Position numbers and translations under genes: made by a program. From assembly GCA_018656555.1 (NCBI GenBank), contig JABHZQ010000024.1, positions 1 through 64,000 of the forward strand: a DNA stretch of 64,000 nt. The letters are read 5' to 3'. A model generated the notes under the pieces. That model worked only from the letters and a program-made list of their open reading frames with translations. It did no database searches and was not told where the DNA came from. Within the stretch, counting starts at the first letter, position 1; every line of letters starts with the position of its first letter. The stretch is from an archaeon. Lineage in GTDB: Archaea; Nanobdellota; Nanobdellia; SCGC-AAA011-G17; GW2011-AR17. This document shows, piece after piece, positions 1-44,625 of this stretch.

Positions 1-2640
1 TCAATCATTTATTGTTGTAGGAAACGCAACCCTCTGTACAACAAGTGTAAACACAAATACTTTAGCTGACAACCAAGCAGCCTGGCACGCCACATCAAAT
101 GCAATTCTGGACTGTAATCAAAGTACTTTCACTGGCACTACTGGTAATAATAATAGAGCCGGTATGCAACTCCTTTATTCTTGGGACAACACAACCATAA
201 AAAACTGTAAATTTAACACCTATGGTTTTGGAATTAAAGTTGATGGGGACAGTACAAGTAACAATGCATCTCACCATAAACTAATAGGTAATACTCTAAC
301 CAGTAACACTTATGGAATATACCACGACGAGGGAACATACTATAACCAATTCATCAACAACACCTTATCTTCAAATAATTATAATATTTATTTTGATGAT
401 AACAATGACTACAACCAATACATTAACAATTCAATTAAAAACTCAAATGTAGATGGAATCTGGTTTGATCGTTCTAGCAACAACTACAACAATTTCACTG
501 GAAATAACATATCAAATAATGGTAATGCTGGTGATGAATATGGGGTTCAAATTGATAGTAGTTCAAATAACAATAATAAATTCTTTGGAAATTATTTCAG
601 TGGTAACTATGACCTAGATGTGTCTGATTTCAATGGGGGCAATACTTACTCTGTCACACCATTTGATGGTGGAAACATCATGGGTGGTAATAAAATTGGT
701 GGAAACTATTGGGAGAATGTACAATGTGTAGATCATGGTATGGGTCCAGGCCCATACTATAATACCTCCGGAGATGGAATCTGTGATGGTCTGGGCTATA
801 CAGTCACAGACGATGGTGGAGTCGTTAGAAGCTATGATAGCTATGCAATGAATGATGACACAACTGGCTGTGCTAAAATAACAGACGATTCAAATCATAA
901 TGATCAATCATTTATTGTTGTAGGAAACGCAACCCTCTGTACAACAAGTGTAAACACAAATACTTTAACTGACAACTATCATGCTTGGAGAGGAATATCA
1001 AATGCAATTCTAGATTGTAACCAATCAACATTCACAGGAACAACTAATAATAATAATAGATTTGGCTTCCGTTTATACCAAAGTACAGACAATATAACAA
1101 TAAAGAATTGTAAATTTAACACCTACGGAAGAGGAATTTATGTTGATGGTGATAGCACATCAAACAATGCATCCCATAATAAACTAATAGGTAATACTCT
1201 AACCAGTAACACTTATGGAATATACCACGAAGATGGAACCTACTATAACCAATTCATCAACAACACCTTATCTTCAAATAATTATAATATTTATTTTGAT
1301 GATAACAATGACTACAACCAATACATTAACAATTCAATTAAAAACTCAAATATACAGGGAATACATTTTGATCGTTCTAGCAACAACTACAACAATTTCA
1401 CTGGAAACAACATCTCAAATAATGGTAATGCAGATAATGAATATGGTGTTTTAATTGATAATGACAACAATAATAATAATAAATTCTTTGGAAATTATTT
1501 CAGTGGTAACTATGACTTAGAAGTATCCGACTATAATGGAGGTAATAGTTACTCTGTCACACCATTTGATGGTGGAAACATTATGGGTGGAAATAAAATT
1601 GGTGGAAACTATTGGGATCATGTACAATGTGTAGATCATGGAATGGGTCCAGGCCCATACTATAATACATCTGGAGATGGAATCTGTGATGGCCTAGGTT
1701 ATACAGTCACAGACGATATTGGTTATGTTCAGGGCTATGATTACTATGCAATGAATGATGACACAACTGGCTGTGCTAAAATAACAGACGATTCATATCA
1801 TAATGATCAATCATTTATGGTTGTAGGAAACGCAACCCTCTGTACAACAAGTGTAAACACAAATACTTTAGCTGATAACTATCATGCTTGGAGAGGAATA
1901 TCAAATGCAATTCTAGATTGTAACCAATCAACATTCACAGGAACAACAGCAAATAGTAATAGATTTGGCTTCCGTTTATACCAAAGTACAGACAATATAA
2001 CAATAAAGAATTGTAAATTTAACACCTACGGAAGAGGAATTTATGTTGATGGTGATAGCCTAGGAAACAATGCATCTCATAATAAACTAATAGGTAATAC
2101 TATAACTAGTAACACATATGGAACTTATGAGGAATTTAGTTATTATAATCAATACATCAACAACACATTTTCTTCAAATAATTATAATCTTTATCTTTAT
2201 GAGGATAATTACTACAATAAATACATTAACAATTCAATTAAAGATTCAACAGTCATGGGAGTTTTCCTTGATAAAGACTATAATAAATGGAATAATTTCA
2301 CTGGAAACAATATTTCAGGTAATGGGGATGGAGATAATGAATATAATGTAAGAATAGATAACAGCAACAATCTATATAATTACTTTACAAATAATTATTT
2401 CAGTGCCAAATCAGATGATCTATATCATATTTATGATGATAATGCAAACAACTATTTTTCTGTAGCTCCTTATTCCACAAGAAGTATTATTAATGGACCA
2501 AAAACTGGTGGAAACTATTGGGATGATTACACTGGAGTAGATAGTGATGGTGATGGAATCGGCCAAACAAGTTATAATTCAGGAATATACTTGGCAACAG
2601 ATAGTAATCCTCTTGCTAGATATGATGGGTGTATGAACCT
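1..2640 (+). repeat. Three tandem ~903-bp (301-aa) repeats encoding right-handed beta-helix (NosD-like) units; third copy diverged
   Basis: 'tcaatcatttattgttgtaggaaacgcaaccctctgtacaacaagtgtaaacacaaatacttt' occurs at 1 and 904, and a near copy at 1807; spacing 903 bp, in frame. Confidence 0.9.
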
Positions 2641-5600
2641 ATCTAATTATTACACTTGGGGAAATAACATAACTCAAGTAGGAGAAGATTTCTATATACA
2701 AGGAAGTATAAACCTCTGTTATGGTGAATATAACTTAACTGATTCAGAAAACAATGGAGCAATAATAATCAATGCAGATAATATCTACCTAGATTTCAAT
2801 GGTTCAAAAATATTGGGAAATACAACTGGAACCTTTATCTACTCAAATAAAACAAATCTAACTCTCTTCAATGCATCAATAGATAATTTTTCAAAAGCAA
2901 TACACTTTGAAGATGCTAATAACACATTAATAGAATATTTCAAAATAAAAAATAACTCAATTTACTTAACAAACTCACAAATAGATTTCTCCTTCTTTGA
3001 AATCTTCACAGAGTATGTAAATATAGAGTACTCTGCCCTAAACATAACAAAAGAACAAAACACAACCAATAATATTAGACTAATACAAAACTTCACAATA
3101 TTAGAGTCAAATAATATAGATGAATTCAACTCCTCTGCAAAACTAACATTTTACAATATATCTGGAGTAGATGTACCTTCTGGTTTCAGAAACGGGGCAA
3201 AATGTGGGGCAAAATGTACAAATGTAGTAACTCTTGGTGGAAATAACTACACAATGAATGTAACTGGATTCACAAACTACACAATAACTCAAGGAAATGC
3301 AGCACCAGTAGTAAACACAGTAGAAAATGTACCCTCTCCCTACTACAAAGTCACAATGGCTCTAAGAGCAAACATAACTGATTCAAATGGCCAAGCAGAT
3401 ATAGTCTATGCAAACTACACAGTAACAGCTCAAGATAATACTAAACTATTAGAAAACTTCAATGCAACTACAGACTTAACATTCTGGAATTCTAGTACAT
3501 TTACTCTAAATCAAAATTCAACCTATAACTATACCTTAATTGTAAAAGATACAGATGATAATTTTGTTACAGAAACAGGAACTTTAGAGTTCTTAATAAT
3601 CCCAGAAACACTAAGTCCACAAATTGCTTACACAAACAATCCATATACTACCTATGGATCTGTAAACTTCACAAATGGAACATCAATTGAAAATAGTTCA
3701 GTTAATGTATTCTTAGATGATCAAATGAAAATAAAAAAATGGTGGGATAGTGATTGGAAATACAGAAAAGAAATAGTACTAACAGAAGAATCCGGTTCAA
3801 ATCTTAGTGATTACCAGGTACAAATAGATATTTCAGATTTAATCTATAACAATTCAGGCCTTGTTGCAAGCTGGCATTTTAATGAGGGAACTGGAACAAG
3901 ATATATTGGTTCAAGTAAATACCAAAGGGAAAATTATAGTATTGGAGGAGATCCCTCTTATGTGGCAGGAGTTTCAGGAACAGCATTAGATTTTGATGGA
4001 AATGATCGTTTAATCGTAGCATATGATTCAAGTATAGGGTTTAGTCAATACACTATCTCTGTATGGATGAAACCTGATGCTTCAAATACCGGATGGAGAG
4101 GAATTTTTGGAAAAAAAGGAAGAAATTATAATTTCTGGTATAATAGCGATGATGATTATGTTCACCATAGATATTGTGATGATGCAAATTATAACTCTGG
4201 AGCAGATAACACTCCCTCTGGTTCTATCATAAAGGGTGAATGGAATTTTGTAACTCTAACAAATGATGGAGTTAATTCTTCAACCTATCTTAATGGAGTA
4301 CTTAACACAACTGGAATAACAACTGGGAGCTTGTGTATAAATTCCACAGTATTAAACATAGCTAGAAATTTAGATGAAGCCGATAGTGCCTATTTCATCG
4401 GAGCTCTAGATGAGATGAAAATGCATAATATCTCTCTTCAACCAGAGGAAATTAAACATGAGTTTTGTATGGGTGCACATAATTTATACTTACTCGGAGA
4501 TATTTCAGAAGCAACATTTGACTCTTATAATTGTGAAATAAAATCCTATAACTATACTCATCAAGATCTTAGAGTTGTAGATCAATCAGGAAATGAGTTA
4601 CCTTTCTATCTAGAAGGAGATACAAATTTATGGGTAAAAACAGATCTAACAGCAAATATTAACACTTCAATATTTGTATACTATGGTAATCCTTCTGCAG
4701 CTCCCTCAAGTAATGGTGATGATGTATTCCTCCTCTTTGATGATTTTAACTCTGGAACACTAGATGAAACTAAATGGAATGTAACAGTGAATGGTAATGG
4801 AAATGTAACAGTTAATCATCAACAAGCAGAAATTGATGATGGAAGTAATACTGGAGCAAAACTTAGATCCTATGCAAATGTTTCACATGGAGTTTTGGAA
4901 TCAAGATTAAAATGGACAGATAGTTATGAATTAGATTTAGATATGTCTTATGGATGGAATGGTACTATAGCTGGAAGAATGGGCATGGATCTTCAAGCTT
5001 GGGAATCTCCTCATGGAGTGTATAATGGGACAACTTGGACAAATGGAACTAAATATCTTTCAAATACCTATAAAGATCTTAAATTAATAAGTGCAGTAGG
5101 AAACCAAACAAGTATTTATGATGGAGAAATTGTACAGGGATTTAATACCACAGTAAACTTAGATCCAGTTCCAATATATTTTAATATGGGCAATAATCTT
5201 CCAACATTAATCCTAGATTATGTAAGAGTAAGAGAATTTGCATCAACAGAACCTAGTTTTACATTCAATACTCAACAAAATAGTTCAACCTATCTAACAG
5301 TTAATGGAGAATATAATTACACTCTAACTGCTCCTTCAGATGGAGGATCCTACACTATTAAAGTAAATACTTCAGTGAGTGGAATCTATGGACAAAATTC
5401 ACAAGTATTAACAGTCTACCAAATTCCAACAGTAGACACAGTTTCTTTCTTTAATAGGGGTTGGATGAAAAACCTAACAATACAAGCAAACATAACTGAT
5501 GATAATTTAGATAAGGTTAATTTCACAATCACAAGAATCTCCGATAACACTAAACTTATAGATAACCAAGCAGGAACAAACCTAGCAAACGCATGGAACT

Positions 5601-8600
5601 CAACATCTACAAACATAACAGATTGTACAGAACACAATTACACAATATTTGCTTATGATACTGATAACTTCAACACAACCTCAACTGGTAACATAACTTT
5701 TTTATGTATGACTGTTAATCTAAATCCTTCAAGTCTAAATCTTAATGATTCATTTGATATAACTGGATATACAAACCTGACTAATGGTACTGTGGTTACT
5801 GATGCAGCTATTTTCGTACACTATGATGAAAATTCTTATGGATCAAGTGGGTGGTGGAATTCTAGTTGGGAATATAGAACAAATCTTACTGTAGACACGG
5901 GTTATGCACCAAGAGGTAATAACTCAGTTACAAAGATGATAATTAATTTCACACAGCTTATGTCTGATAATTCAATTACTGGTAATTTTGATCCAAATTC
6001 AATAAGAGTAACAGATAGTAATGGCAATTTAGTAGACTCTGAGATTACAAGATGGTTTGGTGTAAACAGAACTGGAATGCTAAGATGGAAGATGTCAACT
6101 AGAGATACAATTACAAAAGAAACCAATTATTCATACTATTTATACTTTGATACTTTTACAAATGGAGTAAAACAACCAGCAAATGCAAGTCTGCCAAAAG
6201 AGTTTTTCATTTGTTCAGCAGCAGATGCTGGAAATGATCATTACTATGCCTACTCAACATACAATAGATCACTACCTAGTACTTGGACAAAATGGGATCC
6301 AGAAAGTAGTAATCAAAAAGATGAGTCTACTATTGCTGATTTTGACAATGATGGAGATTTAGATATTGTTTATACCTCCGACAATGCAAATTCAGCCTAT
6401 GTCTATTCCAATGATGGAGATGCAAGTTGGAGCTTCACATTAGCCCAGACAATTACAAGTATTGATGGAGATTGGAATGGTATTTGTGAAGGAGACTTTA
6501 ATGAAGATGGTTGGTTAGATCTGGTTATCAATGAAGATGATTGTGTATTAAGATATTATGAAAATGATGGAGATGGAACTTTTACTTATGTTTCAAGTCC
6601 AGGAGATTGTGGAGGAGAAGCAAGAAAGATTGCTTGTGGAGAAATAGATGGAGATAATAATGTGGATATTGTGGCTGGAGCATATAGCAATGGTTGTTTA
6701 TATTTAATTAAAGGAGATGGAGATGGAACTTTTACAGACAGTGGATGTATTTCTGATTCACAAGGAGATGGAGATGATCAACATGGTGTATGGATTGTTG
6801 ATGCAGACCTTGATGGAGATATGGATGTTTATGGACAATCAAGTAGTTCCTATTCTGATTACTTTGAAAATAAAGGAGATGGAACCTTTGAAAATGGGGT
6901 AAGACAGACAGATGGAGGAATAGTTGATTCAAGTCCTATTCAAAACCAATGGGGTTCTGGTACTGTAGGAGATTATGATCATGATGGTTCAATGGATATA
7001 ATTGAAGGGAGTTGGACTTCTGGAACTTCTTATATGGCAGTATATTGGGGGGATAATAGTTTATCTAATATATACAATAATGGAAATCCAAGTGATAAAG
7101 ATGCAGTAGCTGGTATGGTAGATTATTCCATGTTTTGTGGAGGGGCAGACTTCCTACAAGATATAAAAGTTTGGGCTGAAAACAATTCTGAAAGTCCAGC
7201 AGTAATTTTAAACTCTTCTGGTTGGTATGAAGGATCTTTTACTGCACCTTCAGCAGGTGGACCATATAATGTAAAGTTAAACACAACTTACCAAGGAATC
7301 TATGGAGAAAACTCTCAAACCCTAACAGTATATCAAGCACCAACAATAGAGACAGTAGCTTTTTTTAACAAGTTAGAGAATCAAAACCTAACAATTCAAG
7401 TAAACATAACAGATGATAATATACAAAATGTAAATTTCACAATCACAAAAATCTCAGATAATACTAAAATTATAGATAACCAAGCAGGAACAAACATCTC
7501 AGATTCATGGAACTCCACTCGGGCAAAACTAGATGGTTGTACAGATCATAACTATACTATATTTGCCTATGATAAAGATAATTTTAATGCAACAGAATCA
7601 GGAAACCTAACTTTAATCTGTATGACACTTAATGTAAATCCTTCTCCAGCCCAACTTGAAAATACTATATTAATTTCAGGTTACCTTAATTATACAAACA
7701 GTTCAATGACTACCGGAGCAGGAGTAAATGTATTTGTTGATGGAACTTTACAAGCTGGTTTAGGGAATGGAAGTGATGGAGCTTTAACAGTAACTGCAGC
7801 AGAAACAATAATCAATAATTATACTCATTTAACTGGAAATGAAACTTCTGGAAATACATCAATAGCTGTAGGAGATTCAAGTGAATTTGCAGCAAATGAT
7901 GAAGTATTAATCATCCAAATGCAAAATGCTTCTGGTGGAAATTTTGGGGTATATGAATTTGCAAGAATCTCCTCAGTAGAGGCTACTAGAGTAAATTTCA
8001 CAAAACCATTGAATAACAGTTACTATTCTGGAAGATTTAACACAACTTATTCAACAGTAAGTCAAATAGTAAAGGTACCCCAATATACTAATGTAACAAT
8101 AGATGATGGGGCAACAATTACAGCAAAATTATGGGATAGGTGGAGTGGAGGGATTGTAGTTTTCAAAGCAACAGATGGTGTGAATATAACTGGAAGTGTT
8201 GATGCAGAAGGAAAAGGATTTAGGGGAGGAGAAGCAAGACAGGCTGGAGCAGGTAATGGAACAGCAGGAGAATCTTATTATGGTTTAGGTATTGCAACAG
8301 CAGATCCTAATGAGGCTGGTGGGGGAGGAGGAGCAGGAAGAGATGCTTGTAGTCAAAATTGTGGTGCTGGGGGAGGAGGAGGTTATGGAACAGCCGGAAC
8401 AGTAGGAATTGGAAGTGGAAATTTGCAACCTGGAGATCCTGGTGCGAATTATAATATACCTAATTTAGATAGTTTAATTTTTGGTTCTGCTGGTGGGGGG
8501 GGAGGCTCAGGATGGAGTGGAAGTGGTTGTGCAAATCATAGGGGGGGACATGGTGGAGGAATAGTATTTATTTCAGCTCAAGAGATCTTAGTTTCAGGAA

Positions 8601-11600
8601 ACTTAACTGTTGCAGGAAAATTTTATGGAACTGGTTGGCATGGTGGATGTTGTGATTGTGCTGCATCTGGTTCTGGAGCAGGAGGAACAGTATATCTAAG
8701 ATCTTCAGTAATGGATTTCTCAAATGGTATTGTCAATGCAAGTGGAGGAAATGGTGTAAACTCTACTGCTGCAGGTTATAAACATGAACAAGGAGGAAAT
8801 GGAGGAGTAGGAAGAATAAGGTTAGATGTTACAACTCTATCTGGTACAACTCATCCAGGTTCTGGTTATAATGGTACTTTTGCAACAACTGTAGTAAATG
8901 AGAGTGGATATTATGACTATAATTTAAGTGCATTTTCAGAGGGGGGAGTTTACACAATAAAAGTTAATACTACTCATTCTGGAATATATTCAGAAAAGAC
9001 TGAAGCATTAACAGTATACCAATCCCCATCAATACAAACTGTATCTTTCCTTAATAGAATCTGGGGCCAAAATATAACAATACAAGTAAATCTAACTGAT
9101 GACAATTTAGATAAATCAAATTTCACAATCACAAGAATCTCAGATAACATCAAAGTATTAGATAACCAAGCAGGAACAAACCTATCTAACTCTTGGAACT
9201 CAACATCTACAAACATAACAGATTGTACAGAACATAATTACTCAATATATGCCTATGATAAAGACAACTTCAATGCAACTTCCTCCGGAAATATAACTTT
9301 TATGTGTATAGATATAAATTTTAATACTACCATCATAGCAATTAATGATTCATTTGAAAGTTATGGGACTGTAAATTTAACAAATGGAACTAATGTAGCA
9401 AACACAGATGTGGATATATACATAAATCTAACAAAACAATCAACCTCAACACCTGCAAACTGGGATAATCTTAATTTTACTTACAGATTACCAATAAATC
9501 TAACTCAACCAAATACCTTTTCAAGTGGAAGAACACAAGAACACATATTACTAAATCTTACTTTAGCTGAAAGTAGGTTAAGAAATGAATCTGGTCCATC
9601 ATTCTATTGTAATGGAACTCAAATGCCTTACGAAGGATACGCAATAAATATTACAGATGGATGGGTAACTCAACTACAAGCTTTAGTAGAAATTAACTTT
9701 TCACAATATGATAACAAATCCTGTTATCTTTATTATGATACTGGATATAATGGAACAAATCCAACTATGAGAAGAACTGGTTGGCATTATGTATCAGATG
9801 GAGATCAAGGTGGTGCTAATCCTCCTGCAGACTTGACTCCAGCAAATATTGATTGTAATAGTAATGATGCAAATGGAGAATGGACAGTCTACCCTTGTAC
9901 AGGTTCAACAAGTGACACATATACTGTAAATGAATGGTGTTATTTCAAAGGTCAAGTTACTGGAACACAAACTTTCTGGAGACAGTCAGATGATGCTTCT
10001 TATTTGATAATTGATGGAACAACAGTAACTAGTGGGCCTTGTTGTGGGGCAACTACTGGAACTTATACTACTGCAACTGGAAGATTTTATAACATGGAAA
10101 CTGACTGGACAGAAGGAGGAGGAGGAGAATATGTTTACTTGGCTCATGCTGGTTCAAATTCAAATGATATAGACACTGAATGTTATCCTTATTATGGTGA
10201 TGAATGGACAATAGATATAACTAATAGTAGTGAAGAATCAAAAGGTAATCCTGCGCAAACAAATGCTACTGGCCAATATAGTCACACCTTAACATCCCCC
10301 TCTTCAACTGGAGAGTATCCTGTTAAATTTAACACTACATATAGTGGGATTTATGGAGAGAGAACAGTAAGTAGTACAGTAAAAGCAAGACCAAGTGTTA
10401 CATTAACAAGTCCAATAAATGCAAACTACTCTGTAATATTAGAGAGTATTAAATTCAACTGTACAGTAACAGATACAGATGGAGATTTAAGTAATATTAC
10501 TCTCTATCATGATCTAAGTGGAACTTGGGCTAGTGATGGCACTGCAAGTGTTACTGGTTCCTCAAACTCAACAGTCTTCACAAGAGATGTAAGAGATTAT
10601 ATTGGATACAAGTTCACAGATTCAAGATACACTTGGAATTGTAAAGCAACCGATGAATTTAACTTAGATTCCCAGGCTTCAACAAATGTAACTTTTGGTT
10701 CTTGGAATGTAGGGAATTATTCTGATACATTACTAAATGTCTCTAGTGGGTACCTAGGACTAGATGATTCAGATTCAATACAAGAACTAAATAGTACTTG
10801 GTTTAACTTAAGTGGAAATGGTCTATTGTTGCACATGAATGAAGCTTCTGGAACAATAATTGACTCTTCTGGAAATGGTAATGATGGTTCAGACTCAGGG
10901 GGAATAAATTATAGTGCTGAAGGTAAATTAAACACTGCTATTGGATTTGATGGAGATAATGATTATATTAATATAGGAGACATAACAGATTTTGATGATC
11001 TATCTGAACTAACTCTTAGTGCATGGTTTTATCTTGAAGGTAATTCTTCCACATCCACCCCTGGAGGGATAATTGACAAATTTGATGTTTCCGGAGATGA
11101 AAGAAATATTTTATTCACTGAAACTGGAGGAAATCTTAGAATTAGTGTTGGTGAAACTGGAGGAGTAGGAGATTATTGTTATGTTATCACACCACTAAAA
11201 TTAAATAGGTGGTATCATGGTGCTGCGACATTTGATTCAGGAGATTGTAGTCTTTATTTAGATGGGGCTTTGACTGGATCTGCAAGTGCACCAGAAGGAG
11301 AAACTACCACTGGTTCAAATTCAGCCCCTTTAAGAATTGGTAGTTCAAATGATTTTGCAGGTTCAGGTTCAGGTTATTTCAATGGTTCTATAGATGAAGT
11401 AGCAGTTTGGACTAGAACATTATCAGCTAATGAAATTACTGAATTGTACAATAGACAAAAAGGAACATACCTATCAAGAGGAAACTACACTTCAAGAGTC
11501 TTTGATGCAGGAAGACCGGCTATGTGGAAAAATATGACTTGGGATGAAAATGCTCCTTATTATGAAGAACTTCCAGATAATCAAGAAGTAGAAACAGCAA

Positions 11601-14600
11601 CTGGTGGAGTAAATATGACTGGTAATGTTCTTCTAATGCATTTTAATAATGATAGTACTTATGGAGAGAATAACACTAATGCTTTTGATTTTAGTGGAAA
11701 TAAAATTAATGGTACACTAGGAAATCTTAGTCAGAATACTATTCCCTCTTGGACTAGTTCTGGAAAGCTATTTGGTGCTTTAGATTTTGATGGAGAGGAT
11801 TATGTGTCATTTGGAGATAGCTTAGATAGTACTACAACTGGAGAAGATAAGAAATTTAGTTATTCAGTATGGATAAAGCCTGAGTCTCCTCTATCTACTT
11901 GTTTTATTATTGGGAAAGTTGCAGATAGTAGTTGTAGTGAAAGCCAAAGACAGTATTTTTTGAGGCTTTCTTCATCAGGTGTACTAGACTTTTTATGGTA
12001 TGGGGCCCTAGATGCATCTTCATATAGGGGAGTTAAGGGAACAACATATATAACTGATCTTTCAAAATGGCACCATGTTGTAGTAAATTATGATGGATCT
12101 ATTGATACAAATGATGGATTAGATAGAGTAGAAATTTATCTAGATGGTGTTGAAGAATCAAAGGAGCTTTGGCTTTCTTCAGGATCCTTGTTGGGAATTC
12201 AAGATAGTACAGCTCATTTAGGTATTGGTAAGGCATTAGATCCTTCAGGATCAGCTTGTGGAGGAACCAACTTTTTTAACGGAACAATAGATGAAGTAGC
12301 AATTTGGAACAGAACACTATCAGAAGAAGAAATTCTAAACATCTACAAAAGAGGAGCTCTAAGATTAAACTTCTCAGCAAGATCTTGTGATGATACAATT
12401 TGTGATACAGAACTCTTAGTTCCTTTTGGAAGCAATGTATCTTACACAAACATATCTCTACTAAACAACACACAATACTTCCAATATCAATTAAATTACC
12501 AAGCAGATGGCACAGATTTCAGTCCAGAAATATCAATGGATTCAGTAGTTGTGGCTTATGAACCAATAAACAATCCGCCAAATGTAACTAATGTAACTCT
12601 AACTTCAACTTCAAGCTTGAACTATTCAAATGGAACCCTAATTACTGCTTGGGCAATACAAGATCCTGAAGGTGATACAGAAACAGACAATGAAACAAGA
12701 TGGTGGGTAGATGGAATTTTAAATACTACATTCACAAACAATTCAAGAATAGAAGCTGCAAATATAACTAAAGGAGAAGTCTGGAACTTCTCAGTAAGAA
12801 TTTATGATGGAGGTTACTGGAGTGATTGGAGTGAAAACATATCCTTAACAACAGTAAACGCACCACCAAGTATTTCCTTAAATGATCCAACAGATGGAGA
12901 AAAACTATATAGGAATACCTCTCCAACATTAAACATTTCAATTTCAGATGCAGATTCAGATAGTGTAGATGTAACTTTCCTAAATTCCACACTAAACAAC
13001 ACCATATGTGATCTAGACAATGTAAATTCAACAGTAACTTGTACTTGGAGTGGACTAACAGCAAACCAAGTATACTCTTGGCTAGCAAATGCAACAGATG
13101 GAGAAGATACAGTAGTAAGTCCAGTATGGAACTTTACTCCCAACGATGAACCTGGAGTTAACAACATGAGAGCGGATTTCATAAACACCTCTTCAGTATT
13201 ATTCAAATGGCAAAACCAAGCAGATATGCAGTGGGTTTCATTAAGAGTTGGAAGCGAAATAATGGAAATAAGAAGTATAACTAGTGTTGAAGATAACTGG
13301 ACTGTAAATAATATCTATCCAAATCAAGACTACACTTTTGAATGGCAAGTAGGTGATAGCCTATTAGCAATGAGTGATTACCACAATTTCACAATAAAAA
13401 CAATAGGCTGGAATGCTGAACTAGCTAATTATAGTTACAGAAGACTATTTACAGTAAACTCTTCAGAAATAGCATCAGACCAAGATAATTTTGCAGTAAA
13501 CATAAGTCTAACAGAAGATGGTTTCCAATATTATGATTCAGCTAATTGGGTATGGTATCCTTCATTTGGAAGATTAAACTACACAAATAAAAATGACATA
13601 AGATTCGTTGATTACTATGACTCAAAATATCTACAGTTTAATGTCTCATATTGGAATGTTCCAGGAGAGGGTTGTCTTTACCAACAAACAGGACCAAATG
13701 AAACAGCTTACAGTGGAGATTTCATAGAGGTTTACAAAGCTAATGATTCAGATTGGGACACACAAACAACACCTTCACCAACAGGAACTTTCCTATACAA
13801 CTATACAATACCAACAGGAGCAAAAACATCAAGTAAATATAGAATTTATGATGGGGGTTGGGGTTGGGACTTAACTCTGCCAAGTAGTTGTTATGGTGGA
13901 GATAAACTACAATTCAAATCAGTAGCAGATTACAACATACCTGCAGTAGATACTTATTGTTGGAACCAATCAAGTGATGAATGGGCTAAATTCAGAAACA
14001 ATGGAAATGTTTCAGCTTATATTTATGAAACAATGATGACTTGGCAATATGATTGTCAAGCCTATATATCTGTAATCCCTGAACATTATGATGATGAAAC
14101 TCAAACAAACATAGCCGGACTTGATGGAGATTATGATGTTAAGTTCTGGATGTATTATGGTAATACTGGAGATGTTAACAACGAAACATATTTCAACCAA
14201 TCTGGAACAGAACAGGATTCATATAGTTTTGGAGCTGAAATAGAACAAGTTCTTGGGGCACCAACTATATCCAATGTTAATATCACAAAAGGAAGAACAA
14301 CAACAGGAACAAACATTAGTTGGGCAATAGACCAATCAGTAGATAATAGAGTAAGATATGCAACAAACCTCTGGATGTTGGATTCAGTTTGGACTTATAA
14401 AATAAGAAATAATAGTGAAACTTTTGAACACTTATATGGAGATCAAAATAACACCATATTATTAATACCTCATGCTAGTCAGTATGTAGAAACATTAAAT
14501 GTAACTTGTAGTAATTCAACTTTTAGTCCTAATTATACAATAAACACTACTGCAAATCCTGTGTCGATTGTATTCAATGATATAAATATAGCCGAGTATT

Positions 14601-17600
14601 TCAATTGGACAGTAAATTACACTTGGAATAAGTCTTGGATAAGAAATGCAAGAAATGCCGAATTCCAATTAGAAAGTTTAGCAACAAACACAACCTATTA
14701 CTATGAAATAAATGCTTATGGTCAAAATGGAAACTCAACAACTACTGGAAATTTCACACTAGGAAATCTTTCCTCAACACCAACTTTAGAAATATTAAAT
14801 TACACGGAAGATCGTCCAAATAAACAATTAACTATTTGTGCAAATCTAAGCAATATGAGTGATAGCCCAAGAATTAATAGTTCAATTCAATATTGGAATA
14901 CATCCTCGACGACATTCATGGAAACAACATCCACAGAACTAAGTGCAATAGGCACATTCTGTAAAACAATAACTGTTGAGTATGATACAAATAATACCTT
15001 TAGAGCAAAAGGAGTAGGTACAACAACAGGATATAGTGATTCATACAATAATGAATATCTAGCAATACAACCTTTCTTTGCAGGAAGTTATGTTGAAGAT
15101 GACAATGATGATAGAGATAGACAATTTTGCCCTAATGGACCAAATATACTTCCTTGTTATGAACAAAAAGGTTACCTAGAAGGTTCTTTACAAGAAGAGG
15201 ATTGGATCTGGATAGAGTCTAATTTTACTGAATATGGAATACTGAAAGCAAATTGGTGGGATGGTTCAACTTGGACAGAATACAATTTAACTAATGATAC
15301 AGATTCAGATATGCAGTACTTAAAATTAACTGGATTAGATGGAGAGTTCCATACTTTCTACATAACTAACCAAACAGATGATTTAATCTTAAATTGGACT
15401 AAACCAGGAAGAATACATTTGAATAATCAAAATAGAACAGAAGAATACAAGTATGTAGGATTCAATGGTTCAAAAACAGCAATCAATTACTCATTACTTT
15501 ACATGGATGCTATTTATTACAATTCAAGTGCATATCAATGGTGTATGGCTTCTCCAGGTGGAAATTTATATGATTGTATGTCTGTTGAATATTTTGGGGG
15601 AGGAACTGAAAGTGGGTTAACAGAAATAAATGGTGGAACAGCATATGATAGGGGTAGATTATTCAGAGGCGGAATAACAAATGGAGAGATGAACGATACT
15701 GGAGTATTAACACCAGAAAGAAGATCCTTTGATAATACTGGAGAGGGTTATAGATTCTGCTTTGCATACACAGCTTATTGGTGGAACCAATCTATAGTAC
15801 CTGACAATAACATAACTAATTATTATTATAGATACTGGTCTCAAGATGATTGGTGGTCAAACTACTTTGGCTATACTCAATCTAAAAGATTTGATTATAT
15901 AAATTTATTCAGCTGGGCTTACGATGAATTATCATATACAAGAGATTGGACTGAAGTAGATGACACAAGAGTCTCTACAGAAACAGCAGTCCTAAATACA
16001 TTAAATTCAACATTTAATTCACAATATAATCAAAGTTTAGTAGTTGGCTACTTAAATGATTTTGAATTTGATACTGGAGATGACAATATATACAACTTTG
16101 GATTCTACACTGATGGTAGATGGACAAATCAGCAATTTGGAAAATACCAACAAGCATTTGTAATATTCAACCTACCAGACAACACTACTTTGTTAGGGAT
16201 GGACACTGATGGAGATTCATTAAATGATTATGAAGAATTATTTACTTATTATACAAATCCAATGAGTAATGATACTGATGAAGATGGAAGATTAGATGCA
16301 GATGAAATTAATTTAAGTTACGATGCAAATCTCTACACTCTATCAAACACAGCTCCAAATCTAACTGCAATGACATTTAATGCAAGTATTTATTATTCAG
16401 CTACATCAATGGCATTTAATTCAACATACACAGATTATGATGGAGATTCAGCAACAGTATACTTAATTTGGTTTAAGAATGGTGTAAATATATACAATAG
16501 AACATATTCTAATGTTGCTAATGGCACATTAATAGAATCCACATTACAATATCCAAACTTTACTAGGGCTGATCAAATAAACTTAACTCTATATGCAGTA
16601 GATACCTTAAGTGGAACTTCTCCAACAGTAAGAGCAAATATAACAATATCAAATTATCCACCTAGTTTCAATGAAACTTTAGCAAATCAAACAGTAAATT
16701 CAGGACAAGCATTTACTTATGATATTAATTGTAGTGATTCAGATGGAGACAATATAAATTATTATGATAACACCTCATTGTTTAATATTAATGAGACAAC
16801 TGGAATAATAGCTGATACACCTTCACAAACAGAATTTGGTAATAACTCAGTAGAAATTTCCTGTGGAGATGGGACTGAAAACACAACACAAAATATTATC
16901 TATCATATAAATGATAATGAAGATCCAGTTATTACCCTAACAGGACCAGATGTTTTCACAACAGATACAACTCCAACATTTACTCTAACAACTGATGAAG
17001 TTTCAAGTTGTAAGTATAGAAATAGAACATCAAATTTCACTTGGATGGACACATCTGGAGGTACATTACACTATAAAAATCTAAATCTAAACTATGGTCT
17101 GTATGAGTATTCAATAGAGTGTAATGATAGTTCAAGTAATACCGGAAAGAATAAATCAAGATTTTATGTAGCAAAACTAATGCCTACCGAATATTCATTT
17201 AATACAATTGAATTTACAGCAAATGAAACAAATTATAATTATTTAGAAAATGCAAATATAACTATAAACCTTTCAAAAGCAACAAGTAGTTTCTTCCTAT
17301 TAGCTGAGTTTGCTGAAACTCCTGCTGAAGACTTTGAAATAGAAGGACAAACAACAACAGAATATAAATTCTTTAGTATTAACACTGGAAATACAGTAGA
17401 AGGCAATATCAGTGAAGTAACATTAAGATTTGAGTATGATCCAGCAGCTTTAATCGCAGCTGGAATAGCAGAGTCAGAACTTACAGTATTCTATTATAAC
17501 GGAACAACTTGGGCTGAAGAATCTGGAACTGTAAATGAAGCAGAAGATTACATAGAAATAACCATAGCTCACCTAAGTGACTTTGTTATGGGTAAATCAG

Positions 17601-18466
17601 TGCCTACAGCAGCCCCAGTAACAGAAGAAGCAGCAGCTGGTGGCGGAGGAGGAGGAGGCGGATTTAGAGCACCAGCAGAAGTAGAAGAAGAACTAGATGA
17701 AGTGGACGAAATAGAAAATATAGAAATTTCAGTAGATTCAATAACTCTAGATGCAGTAGAAGGCTTTATTTCAGGAGATTCATTTAGAATAACCAATAGA
17801 GGAAACACAGTAGTAGATCTAGAATTAACTGTAACAACAATAAGTGATATTTTACATCTCTCAGATACAGACCTAACTCTAGAACCTGGAGAATCCCAAC
17901 TAATAGAAATAGATGTTATTCCAAAACAAGCAGGTATTTACACCGGTAAAATAAATGTATTCTACAAAAATCAAGTATTACAAATCCCAGTAACAATAAA
18001 CATAAACACAGAAAGAAGTCTTTTTGATATCTCTGTAAATGTACTTGGTGCTTTCAAGAATATAAGGCCTGGTCAAAAAATAACCGCAAGTATGTTCTTA
18101 TTACAAGCAGGATTAGAACAAGAAGAAGATGTAACATTAAATTATATAATTAAGGACTTTGATGGTAACATATACTTAACAGAAAGTGAAACAATAGCAG
18201 TATACCAACAAACATCATTCAATAAACAACTACCTACACAAGATCTACCTCCTGGAGAATATGTTCTTGGTGCAGAAGTCGTCTATGGTGGGGGAATAGC
18301 AACATCAAGTTCACAATTTATTGTTACTGAAACAGAATTAGATAGCTCACAAAAACTACTACTAGGAGTTTTAATTGCAGCAGCTCTTACATTTATATCC
18401 TTAGTTATAATAATAGAAAGATATAAAAAGTTGCGTAGGCCATATATTAAAAAAAGAGGAAGATGA
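2..18466 (+). CDS. Giant secreted/cell-surface multidomain protein, 5' partial (frame open from window start); beta-helix repeats, DUF2341-like, LamG-like, FG-GAP/VCBS-like, Gly-rich, PA14-like, Ig/FN3-like, TSP3/EF-hand-like and PGF-pre-PGF-like segments, C-terminal TM anchor
   Basis: Frame 2 is open from base 2 through the listed ORF to TGA at 18466. Motifs read in the translation: WWDSDWKYRKEIVL, WWNSSWEYRTNL, SWHFNEGTGT, DFDNDGDLDIVYTSD, GGGGGAGRDACSQNCGAGGGGG, DTDGDSLNDYEEL, a PGF-pre-PGF-like tail, and TM LLLGVLIAAALTFISLVIIIERYKK. Confidence 0.9.
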   Translation, partial: QSFIVVGNATLCTTSVNTNTLADNQAAWHATSNAILDCNQSTFTGTTGNNNRAGMQLLYSWDNTTIKNCKFNTYGFGIKVDGDSTSNNASHHKLIGNTLTSNTYGIYHDEGTYYNQFINNTLSSNNYNIYFDDNNDYNQYINNSIKNSNVDGIWFDRSSNNYNNFTGNNISNNGNAGDEYGVQIDSSSNNNNKFFGNYFSGNYDLDVSDFNGGNTYSVTPFDGGNIMGGNKIGGNYWENVQCVDHGMGPGPYYNTSGDGICDGLGYTVTDDGGVVRSYDSYAMNDDTTGCAKITDDSNHNDQSFIVVGNATLCTTSVNTNTLTDNYHAWRGISNAILDCNQSTFTGTTNNNNRFGFRLYQSTDNITIKNCKFNTYGRGIYVDGDSTSNNASHNKLIGNTLTSNTYGIYHEDGTYYNQFINNTLSSNNYNIYFDDNNDYNQYINNSIKNSNIQGIHFDRSSNNYNNFTGNNISNNGNADNEYGVLIDNDNNNNNKFFGNYFSGNYDLEVSDYNGGNSYSVTPFDGGNIMGGNKIGGNYWDHVQCVDHGMGPGPYYNTSGDGICDGLGYTVTDDIGYVQGYDYYAMNDDTTGCAKITDDSYHNDQSFMVVGNATLCTTSVNTNTLADNYHAWRGISNAILDCNQSTFTGTTANSNRFGFRLYQSTDNITIKNCKFNTYGRGIYVDGDSLGNNASHNKLIGNTITSNTYGTYEEFSYYNQYINNTFSSNNYNLYLYEDNYYNKYINNSIKDSTVMGVFLDKDYNKWNNFTGNNISGNGDGDNEYNVRIDNSNNLYNYFTNNYFSAKSDDLYHIYDDNANNYFSVAPYSTRSIINGPKTGGNYWDDYTGVDSDGDGIGQTSYNSGIYLATDSNPLARYDGCMNLSNYYTWGNNITQVGEDFYIQGSINLCYGEYNLTDSENNGAIIINADNIYLDFNGSKILGNTTGTFIYSNKTNLTLFNASIDNFSKAIHFEDANNTLIEYFKIKNNSIYLTNSQIDFSFFEIFTEYVNIEYSALNITKEQNTTNNIRLIQNFTILESNNIDEFNSSAKLTFYNISGVDVPSGFRNGAKCGAKCTNVVTLGGNNYTMNVTGFTNYTITQGNAAPVVNTVENVPSPYYKVTMALRANITDSNGQADIVYANYTVTAQDNTKLLENFNATTDLTFWNSSTFTLNQNSTYNYTLIVKDTDDNFVTETGTLEFLIIPETLSPQIAYTNNPYTTYGSVNFTNGTSIENSSVNVFLDDQMKIKKWWDSDWKYRKEIVLTEESGSNLSDYQVQIDISDLIYNNSGLVASWHFNEGTGTRYIGSSKYQRENYSIGGDPSYVAGVSGTALDFDGNDRLIVAYDSSIGFSQYTISVWMKPDASNTGWRGIFGKKGRNYNFWYNSDDDYVHHRYCDDANYNSGADNTPSGSIIKGEWNFVTLTNDGVNSSTYLNGVLNTTGITTGSLCINSTVLNIARNLDEADSAYFIGALDEMKMHNISLQPEEIKHEFCMGAHNLYLLGDISEATFDSYNCEIKSYNYTHQDLRVVDQSGNELPFYLEGDTNLWVKTDLTANINTSIFVYYGNPSAAPSSNGDDVFLLFDDFNSGTLDETKWNVTVNGNGNVTVNHQQAEIDDGSNTGAKLRSYANVSHGVLESRLKWTDSYELDLDMSYGWNGTIAGRMGMDLQAWESPHGVYNGTTWTNGTKYLSNTYKDLKLISAVGNQTSIYDGEIVQGFNTTVNLDPVPIYFNMGNNLPTLILDYVRVREFASTEPSFTFNTQQNSSTYLTVNGEYNYTLTAPSDGGSYTIKVNTSVSGIYGQNSQVLTVYQIPTVDTVSFFNRGWMKNLTIQANITDDNLDKVNFTITRISDNTKLIDNQAGTNLANAWNSTSTNITDCTEHNYTIFAYDTDNFNTTSTGNITFLCMTVNLNPSSLNLNDSFDITGYTNLTNGTVVTDAAIFVHYDENSYGSSGWWNSSWEYRTNLTVDTGYAPRGNNSVTKMIINFTQLMSDNSITGNFDPNSIRVTDSNGNLVDSEITRWFGVNRTGMLRWKMSTRDTITKETNYSYYLYFDTFTNGVKQPANASLPKEFFICSAADAGNDHYYAYSTYNRSLPSTWTKWDPESSNQKDESTIADFDNDGDLDIVYTSDNANSAYVYSNDGDASWSFTLAQTITSIDGDWNGICEGDFNEDGWLDLVINEDDCVLRYYENDGDGTFTYVSSPGDCGGEARKIACGEIDGDNNVDIVAGAYSNGCLYLIKGDGDGTFTDSGCISDSQGDGDDQHGVWIVDADLDGDMDVYGQSSSSYSDYFENKGDGTFENGVRQTDGGIVDSSPIQNQWGSGTVGDYDHDGSMDIIEGSWTSGTSYMAVYWGDNSLSNIYNNGNPSDKDAVAGMVDYSMFCGGADFLQDIKVWAENNSESPAVILNSSGWYEGSFTAPSAGGPYNVKLNTTYQGIYGENSQTLTVYQAPTIETVAFFNKLENQNLTIQVNITDDNIQNVNFTITKISDNTKIIDNQAGTNISDSWNSTRAKLDGCTDHNYTIFAYDKDNFNATESGNLTLICMTLNVNPSPAQLENTILISGYLNYTNSSMTTGAGVNVFVDGTLQAGLGNGSDGALTVTAAETIINNYTHLTGNETSGNTSIAVGDSSEFAANDEVLIIQMQNASGGNFGVYEFARISSVEATRVNFTKPLNNSYYSGRFNTTYSTVSQIVKVPQYTNVTIDDGATITAKLWDRWSGGIVVFKATDGVNITGSVDAEGKGFRGGEARQAGAGNGTAGESYYGLGIATADPNEAGGGGGAGRDACSQNCGAGGGGGYGTAGTVGIGSGNLQPGDPGANYNIPNLDSLIFGSAGGGGGSGWSGSGCANHRGGHGGGIVFISAQEILVSGNLTVAGKFYGTGWHGGCCDCAASGSGAGGTVYLRSSVMDFSNGIVNASGGNGVNSTAAGYKHEQGGNGGVGRIRLDVTTLSGTTHPGSGYNGTFATTVVNESGYYDYNLSAFSEGGVYTIKVNTTHSGIYSEKTEALTVYQSPSIQTVSFLNRIWGQNITIQVNLTDDNLDKSNFTITRISDNIKVLDNQAGTNLSNSWNSTSTNITDCTEHNYSIYAYDKDNFNATSSGNITFMCIDINFNTTIIAINDSFESYGTVNLTNGTNVANTDVDIYINLTKQSTSTPANWDNLNFTYRLPINLTQPNTFSSGRTQEHILLNLTLAESRLRNESGPSFYCNGTQMPYEGYAINITDGWVTQLQALVEINFSQYDNKSCYLYYDTGYNGTNPTMRRTGWHYVSDGDQGGANPPADLTPANIDCNSNDANGEWTVYPCTGSTSDTYTVNEWCYFKGQVTGTQTFWRQSDDASYLIIDGTTVTSGPCCGATTGTYTTATGRFYNMETDWTEGGGGEYVYLAHAGSNSNDIDTECYPYYGDEWTIDITNSSEESKGNPAQTNATGQYSHTLTSPSSTGEYPVKFNTTYSGIYGERTVSSTVKARPSVTLTSPINANYSVILESIKFNCTVTDTDGDLSNITLYHDLSGTWASDGTASVTGSSNSTVFTRDVRDYIGYKFTDSRYTWNCKATDEFNLDSQASTNVTFGSWNVGNYSDTLLNVSSGYLGLDDSDSIQELNSTWFNLSGNGLLLHMNEASGTIIDSSGNGNDGSDSGGINYSAEGKLNTAIGFDGDNDYINIGDITDFDDLSELTLSAWFYLEGNSSTSTPGGIIDKFDVSGDERNILFTETGGNLRISVGETGGVGDYCYVITPLKLNRWYHGAATFDSGDCSLYLDGALTGSASAPEGETTTGSNSAPLRIGSSNDFAGSGSGYFNGSIDEVAVWTRTLSANEITELYNRQKGTYLSRGNYTSRVFDAGRPAMWKNMTWDENAPYYEELPDNQEVETATGGVNMTGNVLLMHFNNDSTYGENNTNAFDFSGNKINGTLGNLSQNTIPSWTSSGKLFGALDFDGEDYVSFGDSLDSTTTGEDKKFSYSVWIKPESPLSTCFIIGKVADSSCSESQRQYFLRLSSSGVLDFLWYGALDASSYRGVKGTTYITDLSKWHHVVVNYDGSIDTNDGLDRVEIYLDGVEESKELWLSSGSLLGIQDSTAHLGIGKALDPSGSACGGTNFFNGTIDEVAIWNRTLSEEEILNIYKRGALRLNFSARSCDDTICDTELLVPFGSNVSYTNISLLNNTQYFQYQLNYQADGTDFSPEISMDSVVVAYEPINNPPNVTNVTLTSTSSLNYSNGTLITAWAIQDPEGDTETDNETRWWVDGILNTTFTNNSRIEAANITKGEVWNFSVRIYDGGYWSDWSENISLTTVNAPPSISLNDPTDGEKLYRNTSPTLNISISDADSDSVDVTFLNSTLNNTICDLDNVNSTVTCTWSGLTANQVYSWLANATDGEDTVVSPVWNFTPNDEPGVNNMRADFINTSSVLFKWQNQADMQWVSLRVGSEIMEIRSITSVEDNWTVNNIYPNQDYTFEWQVGDSLLAMSDYHNFTIKTIGWNAELANYSYRRLFTVNSSEIASDQDNFAVNISLTEDGFQYYDSANWVWYPSFGRLNYTNKNDIRFVDYYDSKYLQFNVSYWNVPGEGCLYQQTGPNETAYSGDFIEVYKANDSDWDTQTTPSPTGTFLYNYTIPTGAKTSSKYRIYDGGWGWDLTLPSSCYGGDKLQFKSVADYNIPAVDTYCWNQSSDEWAKFRNNGNVSAYIYETMMTWQYDCQAYISVIPEHYDDETQTNIAGLDGDYDVKFWMYYGNTGDVNNETYFNQSGTEQDSYSFGAEIEQVLGAPTISNVNITKGRTTTGTNISWAIDQSVDNRVRYATNLWMLDSVWTYKIRNNSETFEHLYGDQNNTILLIPHASQYVETLNVTCSNSTFSPNYTINTTANPVSIVFNDINIAEYFNWTVNYTWNKSWIRNARNAEFQLESLATNTTYYYEINAYGQNGNSTTTGNFTLGNLSSTPTLEILNYTEDRPNKQLTICANLSNMSDSPRINSSIQYWNTSSTTFMETTSTELSAIGTFCKTITVEYDTNNTFRAKGVGTTTGYSDSYNNEYLAIQPFFAGSYVEDDNDDRDRQFCPNGPNILPCYEQKGYLEGSLQEEDWIWIESNFTEYGILKANWWDGSTWTEYNLTNDTDSDMQYLKLTGLDGEFHTFYITNQTDDLILNWTKPGRIHLNNQNRTEEYKYVGFNGSKTAINYSLLYMDAIYYNSSAYQWCMASPGGNLYDCMSVEYFGGGTESGLTEINGGTAYDRGRLFRGGITNGEMNDTGVLTPERRSFDNTGEGYRFCFAYTAYWWNQSIVPDNNITNYYYRYWSQDDWWSNYFGYTQSKRFDYINLFSWAYDELSYTRDWTEVDDTRVSTETAVLNTLNSTFNSQYNQSLVVGYLNDFEFDTGDDNIYNFGFYTDGRWTNQQFGKYQQAFVIFNLPDNTTLLGMDTDGDSLNDYEELFTYYTNPMSNDTDEDGRLDADEINLSYDANLYTLSNTAPNLTAMTFNASIYYSATSMAFNSTYTDYDGDSATVYLIWFKNGVNIYNRTYSNVANGTLIESTLQYPNFTRADQINLTLYAVDTLSGTSPTVRANITISNYPPSFNETLANQTVNSGQAFTYDINCSDSDGDNINYYDNTSLFNINETTGIIADTPSQTEFGNNSVEISCGDGTENTTQNIIYHINDNEDPVITLTGPDVFTTDTTPTFTLTTDEVSSCKYRNRTSNFTWMDTSGGTLHYKNLNLNYGLYEYSIECNDSSSNTGKNKSRFYVAKLMPTEYSFNTIEFTANETNYNYLENANITINLSKATSSFFLLAEFAETPAEDFEIEGQTTTEYKFFSINTGNTVEGNISEVTLRFEYDPAALIAAGIAESELTVFYYNGTTWAEESGTVNEAEDYIEITIAHLSDFVMGKSVPTAAPVTEEAAAGGGGGGGGFRAPAEVEEELDEVDEIENIEISVDSITLDAVEGFISGDSFRITNRGNTVVDLELTVTTISDILHLSDTDLTLEPGESQLIEIDVIPKQAGIYTGKINVFYKNQVLQIPVTININTERSLFDISVNVLGAFKNIRPGQKITASMFLLQAGLEQEEDVTLNYIIKDFDGNIYLTESETIAVYQQTSFNKQLPTQDLPPGEYVLGAEVVYGGGIATSSSQFIVTETELDSSQKLLLGVLIAAALTFISLVIIIERYKKLRRPYIKKRGR
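5411..5710 (+). repeat. Ig/FN3-like ~100-aa repeat, copy 1 (VYQIPTVDTVSFFNR...ITDDNLDKVNFTITRISDNTK...DNQAGTN...)
   Basis: Strong similarity at DNA and protein level to 7325-7627 and 9011-9310. Confidence 0.8.
7325..7627 (+). repeat. Ig/FN3-like repeat, copy 2
   Basis: VYQAPTIETVAFFNK...ITDDNIQNVNFTITKISDNTKIIDNQAGTN... Confidence 0.8.
9011..9310 (+). repeat. Ig/FN3-like repeat, copy 3
   Basis: VYQSPSIQTVSFLNR...LTDDNLDKSNFTITRISDNIKVLDNQAGTN... Confidence 0.8.
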
Positions 18467-36288: not shown

Positions 36289-36329
36289 TCCAAACATTTA
36301 TAAGTTAGAATTTTTTCTGTGAAGAATAT

Positions 36330-36485
36330 GTCGGGGTAGCAAAGTCTGGTCAAATGAGGTCAAGGAAACTTATCTCAGACTATATGCGCAGGACTTAAGT
36401 TACTCATGATAGACATACAAGCAAGGGTTTGTATAAGATATCCTGTCTCTTAGTGAGTTCGAGGGTTCAAATCCCTTCCCCGACA
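36330..36485 (+). tRNA. tRNA-Leu(TAA) with two introns: 36354-36383 (D-arm) and 36400-36439 (37/38)
   Basis: Spliced: GTCGGGG TA GCA AAGTCTGGTCAAA TGC G CAGGA CTTAAGA TCCTG TCTCTTAGTGAGTTC GAGGG TTCAAAT CCCTT CCCCGAC A. Both introns show BHB elements (H helices GGTC/GACT and CTTA/TAAG, 3-nt bulges). Confidence 0.88.
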
Positions 36486-44438: not shown

Positions 44439-44440
44439 AT

Positions 44441-44625
44441 GCGCGGGACAGGTCTTTCGTAAAACTTTTTGATTAAACTTTTTAAAAAGTTTATTTCGAA
44501 CCTGCGTAGGCACTAAGCCACTGGATATCTTACTTTAGATAGACAGGTTGTCATCTATGGTCTTGAGTTTAGCCAAGTATTGGTATATACTTACCAGCCC
44601 GTTTGACCACTCCGGCACCCGCGCA
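44441..44625 (-). tRNA. tRNA-Leu(CAA) with three introns: 44594-44570 (25 nt), 44562-44528 (35 nt, 37/38), 44495-44455 (41 nt, T-loop)
   Basis: Spliced 84 nt: GCGCGGG TG CCG GAGTGGTCAAA CGG G CTGGA CTCAAGA TCCAG TGGCTTAGTGCCTAC GCAGG TTCGAAA CCTGT CCCGCGC A. BHB H helices: GGCT/GGCT (with GU), CTCA/TAAG (one mismatch), TTCG/CGAA. Confidence 0.87.

Follow-up and report, generated by a model that had tools for sequence, protein, structure and literature searches.

A tRNA-Leu(UAA) gene of a woesearchaeal archaeon interrupted by a D-arm intron and a canonical intron

Introduction

Does a locus that common tRNA finders pass over encode a functional tRNA-Leu(UAA) interrupted by two introns, and which endonuclease would remove an intron that is bounded by a relaxed splicing motif? 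These questions are raised by a short stretch of a woesearchaeal (DPANN) metagenome-assembled genome, designated G000, which comprises about 1.08 Mb in 26 contigs and is 97.7% complete. The locus lies in a stretch of 64,000 nucleotides that was analysed as a whole (hereafter the window). The largest open reading frame of the window has 6100 codons (164-18466, plus strand).

In archaea, co-evolution is assumed between the positions of tRNA introns and the type of splicing endonuclease: few, canonical introns go with narrow alpha4 and alpha'2 enzymes, and many relaxed introns with (alpha-beta)2 and epsilon2 enzymes, which often have extra loops (PMC4090602, PMC6379350, PMC12397907). In the reviews, efficient removal of relaxed introns is ascribed only to the (alpha-beta)2 and epsilon2 enzymes, and the loops specific to Crenarchaea (CSL) or ARMAN (ASL) are described as tracking intron diversity (PMC6379350, PMC12397907, PMC4090602). 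Noncanonical introns of Crenarchaeota, Thaumarchaeota, Nanoarchaeum equitans and ARMAN are likewise small introns with BHB or relaxed BHB motifs outside position 37/38, and there, as in the gene described here, a noncanonical intron is sometimes found together with a canonical one. In contrast to these systems, the host is a member of the Woesearchaeota and its endonuclease lacks the loops, and has no detectable second subunit, of the kind tied to such introns. Since the neighbouring D-arm sites 20/21 and 22/23 have already been listed for archaea (PMC4090602), the finding is ordinary in kind; what gives it value is the lineage, together with an enzyme type that does not match the intron set. 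No report of tRNA introns in DPANN or woesearchaeal archaea was found in the open-licence literature.

Structure of the tRNA-Leu(UAA) gene

An initial annotation, made from the sequence alone, had described a tRNA-Leu(UAA) gene with a D-arm intron and a canonical intron, and its letters and coordinates for this locus proved correct on re-reading (Table 1). When the exons are joined without 36354-36383 and 36400-36439, the product is GTCGGGGTAGCAAAGTCTGGTCAAATGCGCAGGACTTAAGATCCTGTCTCTTAGTGAGTTCGAGGGTTCAAATCCCTTCCCCGACA, which forms a complete class II cloverleaf. The predicted mature tRNA has a 7-bp acceptor stem, a 3-bp D stem, UAA in a 7-nt anticodon loop, a 15-nt variable region, a T arm and A73, and all stems are intact. 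The same cloverleaf was recovered by an independent scorer, which enumerates BHB-bounded introns and ranks the solutions by cloverleaf quality: its top solution consists of exactly these two introns (score 63.6 vs 45.2 for the runner-up). Other cut points in the D loop, which were favoured by a looser scorer allowing a core mismatch, were excluded by the sequences of relatives. That the gene is interrupted by two introns is confirmed, and the assignment is backed by intronless relatives, by five introns at the same junction in other genomes and by the single-copy status of the gene. Homologues in G010, G011 and G284 also have AT-rich upstream boxes similar to the TATA-like box of the host.

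Table 1. Features of the two interrupted tRNA-Leu genes, in window coordinates
Feature	Position	Strand	Basis or remark
Putative TATA-like box TTTATAAG	36297-36304	+	Sequence and relatives' boxes; about 26-33 nt upstream of the gene
tRNA-Leu(UAA) gene, two introns	36330-36485	+	Sequence; cloverleaf and BHB scoring
Exon 1, positions 1-21	36330-36353	+	Set against intronless relatives
D-arm BHB core, 5' strand GGTC	36348-36351	+	Pairs with 36378-36381; conserved in six genomes
5' bulge AAA, predicted cut after second A	36352-36354	+	BHB rule
D-arm intron, 21/22, 30 nt	36354-36383	+	Scorer; same-junction introns in five other genomes
D-arm BHB core, 3' strand GACT	36378-36381	+	GGCT in G284 retains pairing
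3' bulge ATA, predicted cut after T	36382-36384	+	BHB rule
Exon 2, positions 22-37	36384-36399	+	Anticodon TAA at 36396-36398
Canonical intron, 37/38, 40 nt	36400-36439	+	Core CTTA/TAAG; bulges AGT/ATA; outer helix CAGGA/TCCTG
Exon 3, positions 38-73	36440-36485	+	Cloverleaf comparison
tRNA-Leu(CAA) gene, three introns	44440-44624	-	
Leu(CAA) intron, 30/31	44569-44593	-	
Leu(CAA) intron, 37/38	44527-44561	-	One core mismatch
Leu(CAA) intron, T loop, 59/60	44454-44494	-	

The motif around the canonical intron is as annotated and constitutes a full hBHBh' motif, with a 4-bp core, five outer and three inner pairs. With the boundaries fixed, a 4-bp core and three inner pairs arose in 260 of 200,000 shuffles (1.3e-3). 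The D-arm intron has a 4-bp core, GGTC/GACT, flanked at either exon-intron border by a 3-nt bulge, and a 4-bp core with four inner pairs was obtained in 81/200,000 shuffles with fixed boundaries (4e-4). The core, the bulges and the near-absent outer helix of this motif had been described correctly, there being no outer pair at all, but the inner helix, given as the 4-bp TGAG/CTCA, extends to 6 bp (TGAGGT/ATCTCA). Beyond the core follows an asymmetric internal loop, which is closed by the D stem. As judged by inspection, the five other genomes with an intron at this junction also lack the outer helix, because the exon bases that flank the core cannot pair. The predicted motif is the relaxed HBh' form.

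The exact D-arm cut is ambiguous over four positions because both sites share the direct repeat ATG, and the four cut registers yield one identical product, in which GGTCAA is followed directly by ATGCGCAGG. From the BHB rule we infer cuts at AA^A and AT^A, which places the intron at position 21/22. When the pre-tRNA is folded without constraints, the minimum-energy structure (-49.5 kcal/mol) includes the D-arm hairpin and lacks the canonical BHB; a fold constrained to contain both motifs is less stable (-41.3). The weaker constrained fold is to be read as a caveat on in-silico folding and not as a test of splicing.

We consider it highly probable (about 0.9), judging from sequence comparisons, that the locus is a functional tRNA-Leu(UAA) gene, the sole one found, whose precursor would be cut by EndA at both BHB motifs before the exons are ligated. 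According to this proposal, 36330-36485 would be transcribed as a pre-tRNA and EndA would cut every 3-nt bulge behind its second nucleotide, at the full motif (37/38) as well as at the relaxed motif of the D loop (21/22), which has no outer helix. The exons would then be joined, presumably by RtcB.

The splicing endonuclease

The genome possesses a single EndA gene (L001 1474-2007, minus strand), which codes for a protein of 177 amino acids with the N-terminal domain PF02778 and the catalytic domain PF01974. Among GTDB genomes, the relatives of this EndA are mostly labelled Woesearchaeota or Nanoarchaeota. One gene, an N-terminal and a catalytic C-terminal domain and the Tyr/His/Lys triad are the gene-level features of an alpha4 enzyme, and the three catalytic residues are invariant in 88/88 aligned EndAs. 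The protein is nearly collinear with the alpha4 EndA of Methanocaldococcus jannaschii (1A79), which it resembles as a single short protein of nearly equal length through the CSL region with the same conserved triad. An alignment with the alpha subunit of Aeropyrum pernix revealed that the nine-residue loop of the CSL region is missing. Furthermore, no EndA in the alignment has a CSL or ASL insertion with a lysine: the segment comprises 11-13 residues in all 88 proteins, and the spacing from Tyr to His is constant.

These features are difficult to reconcile with the introns. The alpha4 EndA characterised from M. jannaschii is described as having a narrow specificity (PMC6379350), whereas relaxed and noncanonical introns are present in G000. 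The best sequence match in the PDB is the alpha subunit of N. equitans EndA (3IEY; 5.5e-35), and the broad specificity of the (alpha-beta)2 enzyme to which it belongs (PMC6379350) is what the tRNA set of G000 requires. However, N. equitans has a beta subunit and none was found in G000. Two explanations would resolve this: an alpha4-type EndA acting alone has a wider specificity than assumed, or a diverged subunit escaped the searches.

The latter explanation, in which a highly diverged beta subunit makes EndA an ordinary heterotetrameric enzyme of broad specificity that cuts the relaxed motif, draws on the match to the N. equitans alpha subunit and appears unlikely. A heterotetrameric endonuclease had also been suggested as something to look for in the initial annotation, but neither a second structural subunit nor a fused three-unit protein, as in broad-specificity EndAs, was found. 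There was no second EndA gene in G000 in a search with PF01974 (E<=10), none in eight genomes with the same domain (E<=1), and none in six genomes, including the five relatives with D-arm introns, with the EndA protein as query (E<=10). Moreover, a search with G000 EndA detects NEQ261, the beta subunit of N. equitans, at 3e-13, and a beta subunit resembling NEQ261 should therefore have shown up.

As the searches yielded a single short EndA, which has neither CSL nor ASL, this protein, probably an alpha4 homotetramer, most likely makes both cuts and must therefore tolerate the relaxed motif. For the broader claim that loop-less, single-gene alpha4-type EndAs of woesearchaeal archaea remove relaxed introns at several noncanonical positions, with up to four introns per tRNA, we see an even chance. 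If true, it would contradict the opinion that efficient removal of introns with relaxed motifs is confined to (alpha-beta)2 and epsilon2 enzymes.

Introns at the same junction in relatives

Of 103 genomes of the order, 12 contain the exon string expected after splicing, GGTCAAAYGCGYNGGACTTAAG, without interruption; in three, G000, G010 and G011, an intron lies exactly at the 21/22 junction. A sample of the phylum adds G157, G284 and G334, so that the host and five other genomes of the class have this intron. These counts are not frequencies, as many genomes match neither strict pattern, owing to divergent exons or a missing contig. Three further matches to the D-arm pattern in the phylum (G188, G263 and G306) were set aside because a complete, uninterrupted 5' half of a tRNA lies within the gap. 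As intronless and intron-bearing genes mix within one family, the D-arm intron was probably gained or lost repeatedly.

In all six genomes, the exon sequence GGTC pairs with GACT at the intron end (GGCT in G284) and the bulges have 3 nt, the 5' bulge being AAA or AAT and the 3' bulge ending in A. The D-arm introns of the relatives are 17-31 nt long, and their hairpin sequences are unrelated yet self-complementary. Considering the first and the last four inner bases of the six introns, 22 of 24 pairs are formed within genomes. When the arms are swapped between genomes, the mean is 12.8 pairs, and 22/24 is reached by one of the 720 permutations, which is the observed one. At the level of sequence, this combination of core, bulges and covarying hairpins is the hallmark of a BHB intron that is spliced out. 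Retention of the D-arm insert, which would enlarge the D loop of the tRNA, is conceivable insofar as the inserted sequence forms a stable hairpin in the precursor; it is nonetheless very improbable, given that the inserts of five relatives differ in length and sequence but always have the core and 3-nt bulges and that the 12 genomes mentioned above have no insert at this junction.

The tRNA-Leu(UAA) genes of G010 and G157 have three introns each. In G334, the gene (L231; C18, ~780-824, minus strand) apparently has four introns, at 8/9, 21/22, 37/38 and in the variable arm, and the BHB motif of every one has a 4-bp core. This would be one more than the maximum of three introns per archaeal tRNA gene given for tRNAscan-SE 2.0 (PMC8450103). 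Class II tRNAs with the anticodon TAA, the discriminator G and a Ser-like body occur in G002, G011 and G010 (L178, C9; L179, C4; L180, C11); they have an apparent T-arm insert and similar flanks in the three relatives, and are possibly located on a mobile element.

Copy number and detection of the gene

A covariance model of two tRNA-Leu sequences identified no second tRNA-Leu(UAA) gene in the 97.7% complete assembly, neither an intact one, which the initial annotation had named as evidence against its reading, nor any other. In 19 open reading frames of the window, TTA accounts for 543 of 1162 Leu codons and is the commonest of them. ARAGORN called just two tRNA-Thr genes in the window, and Rfam with its gathering score returned the same two; the locus at 36330-36485 was missed by both and also by Rfam at E<=1 on the stretch. 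Although a pseudogene would fit with its being missed by standard finders, there is scarcely any chance of this for the only tRNA-Leu(UAA) gene found, which serves the commonest Leu codon of the window and retains every stem after splicing. Common tRNA finders thus overlook essential tRNAs in DPANN genomes, and ARAGORN and Rfam are blind to this one.

Other interrupted tRNA genes of the genome

Among 31 recognised tRNA genes of G000, 15 have introns; 11 of these introns lie at 37/38, and nine genes together hold 10 noncanonical ones. The census is based on tRNA matches and T-arm patterns and was made with a simple scorer in a single genome, only tRNA-Leu(UAA) having been checked against relatives. 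Most of the extra matches to the T-arm pattern resembled ordinary non-tRNA sequence. Besides the intron of tRNA-Leu(UAA) at 21/22, noncanonical introns are found at 15/16 (initiator Met), 18/19 (Phe), 29/30 (Ser(GCU) and Ser(GGA)), 30/31 (Arg(CCU), Leu(UAG) and Leu(CAA)) and 59/60 (Asp and Leu(CAA)). This woesearchaeal lineage pairs a lone, loop-less EndA with a tRNA set in which about half of the recognised genes are interrupted, so that a single recombinant protein and a single RNA would suffice to test the co-evolution rule.

The tRNA-Leu(CAA) gene, which also lies in the window, is seen neither by ARAGORN nor by Rfam with its gathering score; the solution that a looser scorer gave for it was wrong and was corrected by a target-guided search (Table 1). 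ARAGORN is also blind to the tRNA-Asp gene (L126; G000:C7:41500-41830), which has a T-loop intron of 32 nt and is located directly upstream of a tRNA-Lys gene. Finally, a tRNA-like gene of 63 nt (L124; G000:C7:7371-7433, minus strand) has acceptor, D and T arms and carries an 11-nt mini-hairpin, GAGATTTTCTC, in place of the anticodon arm.
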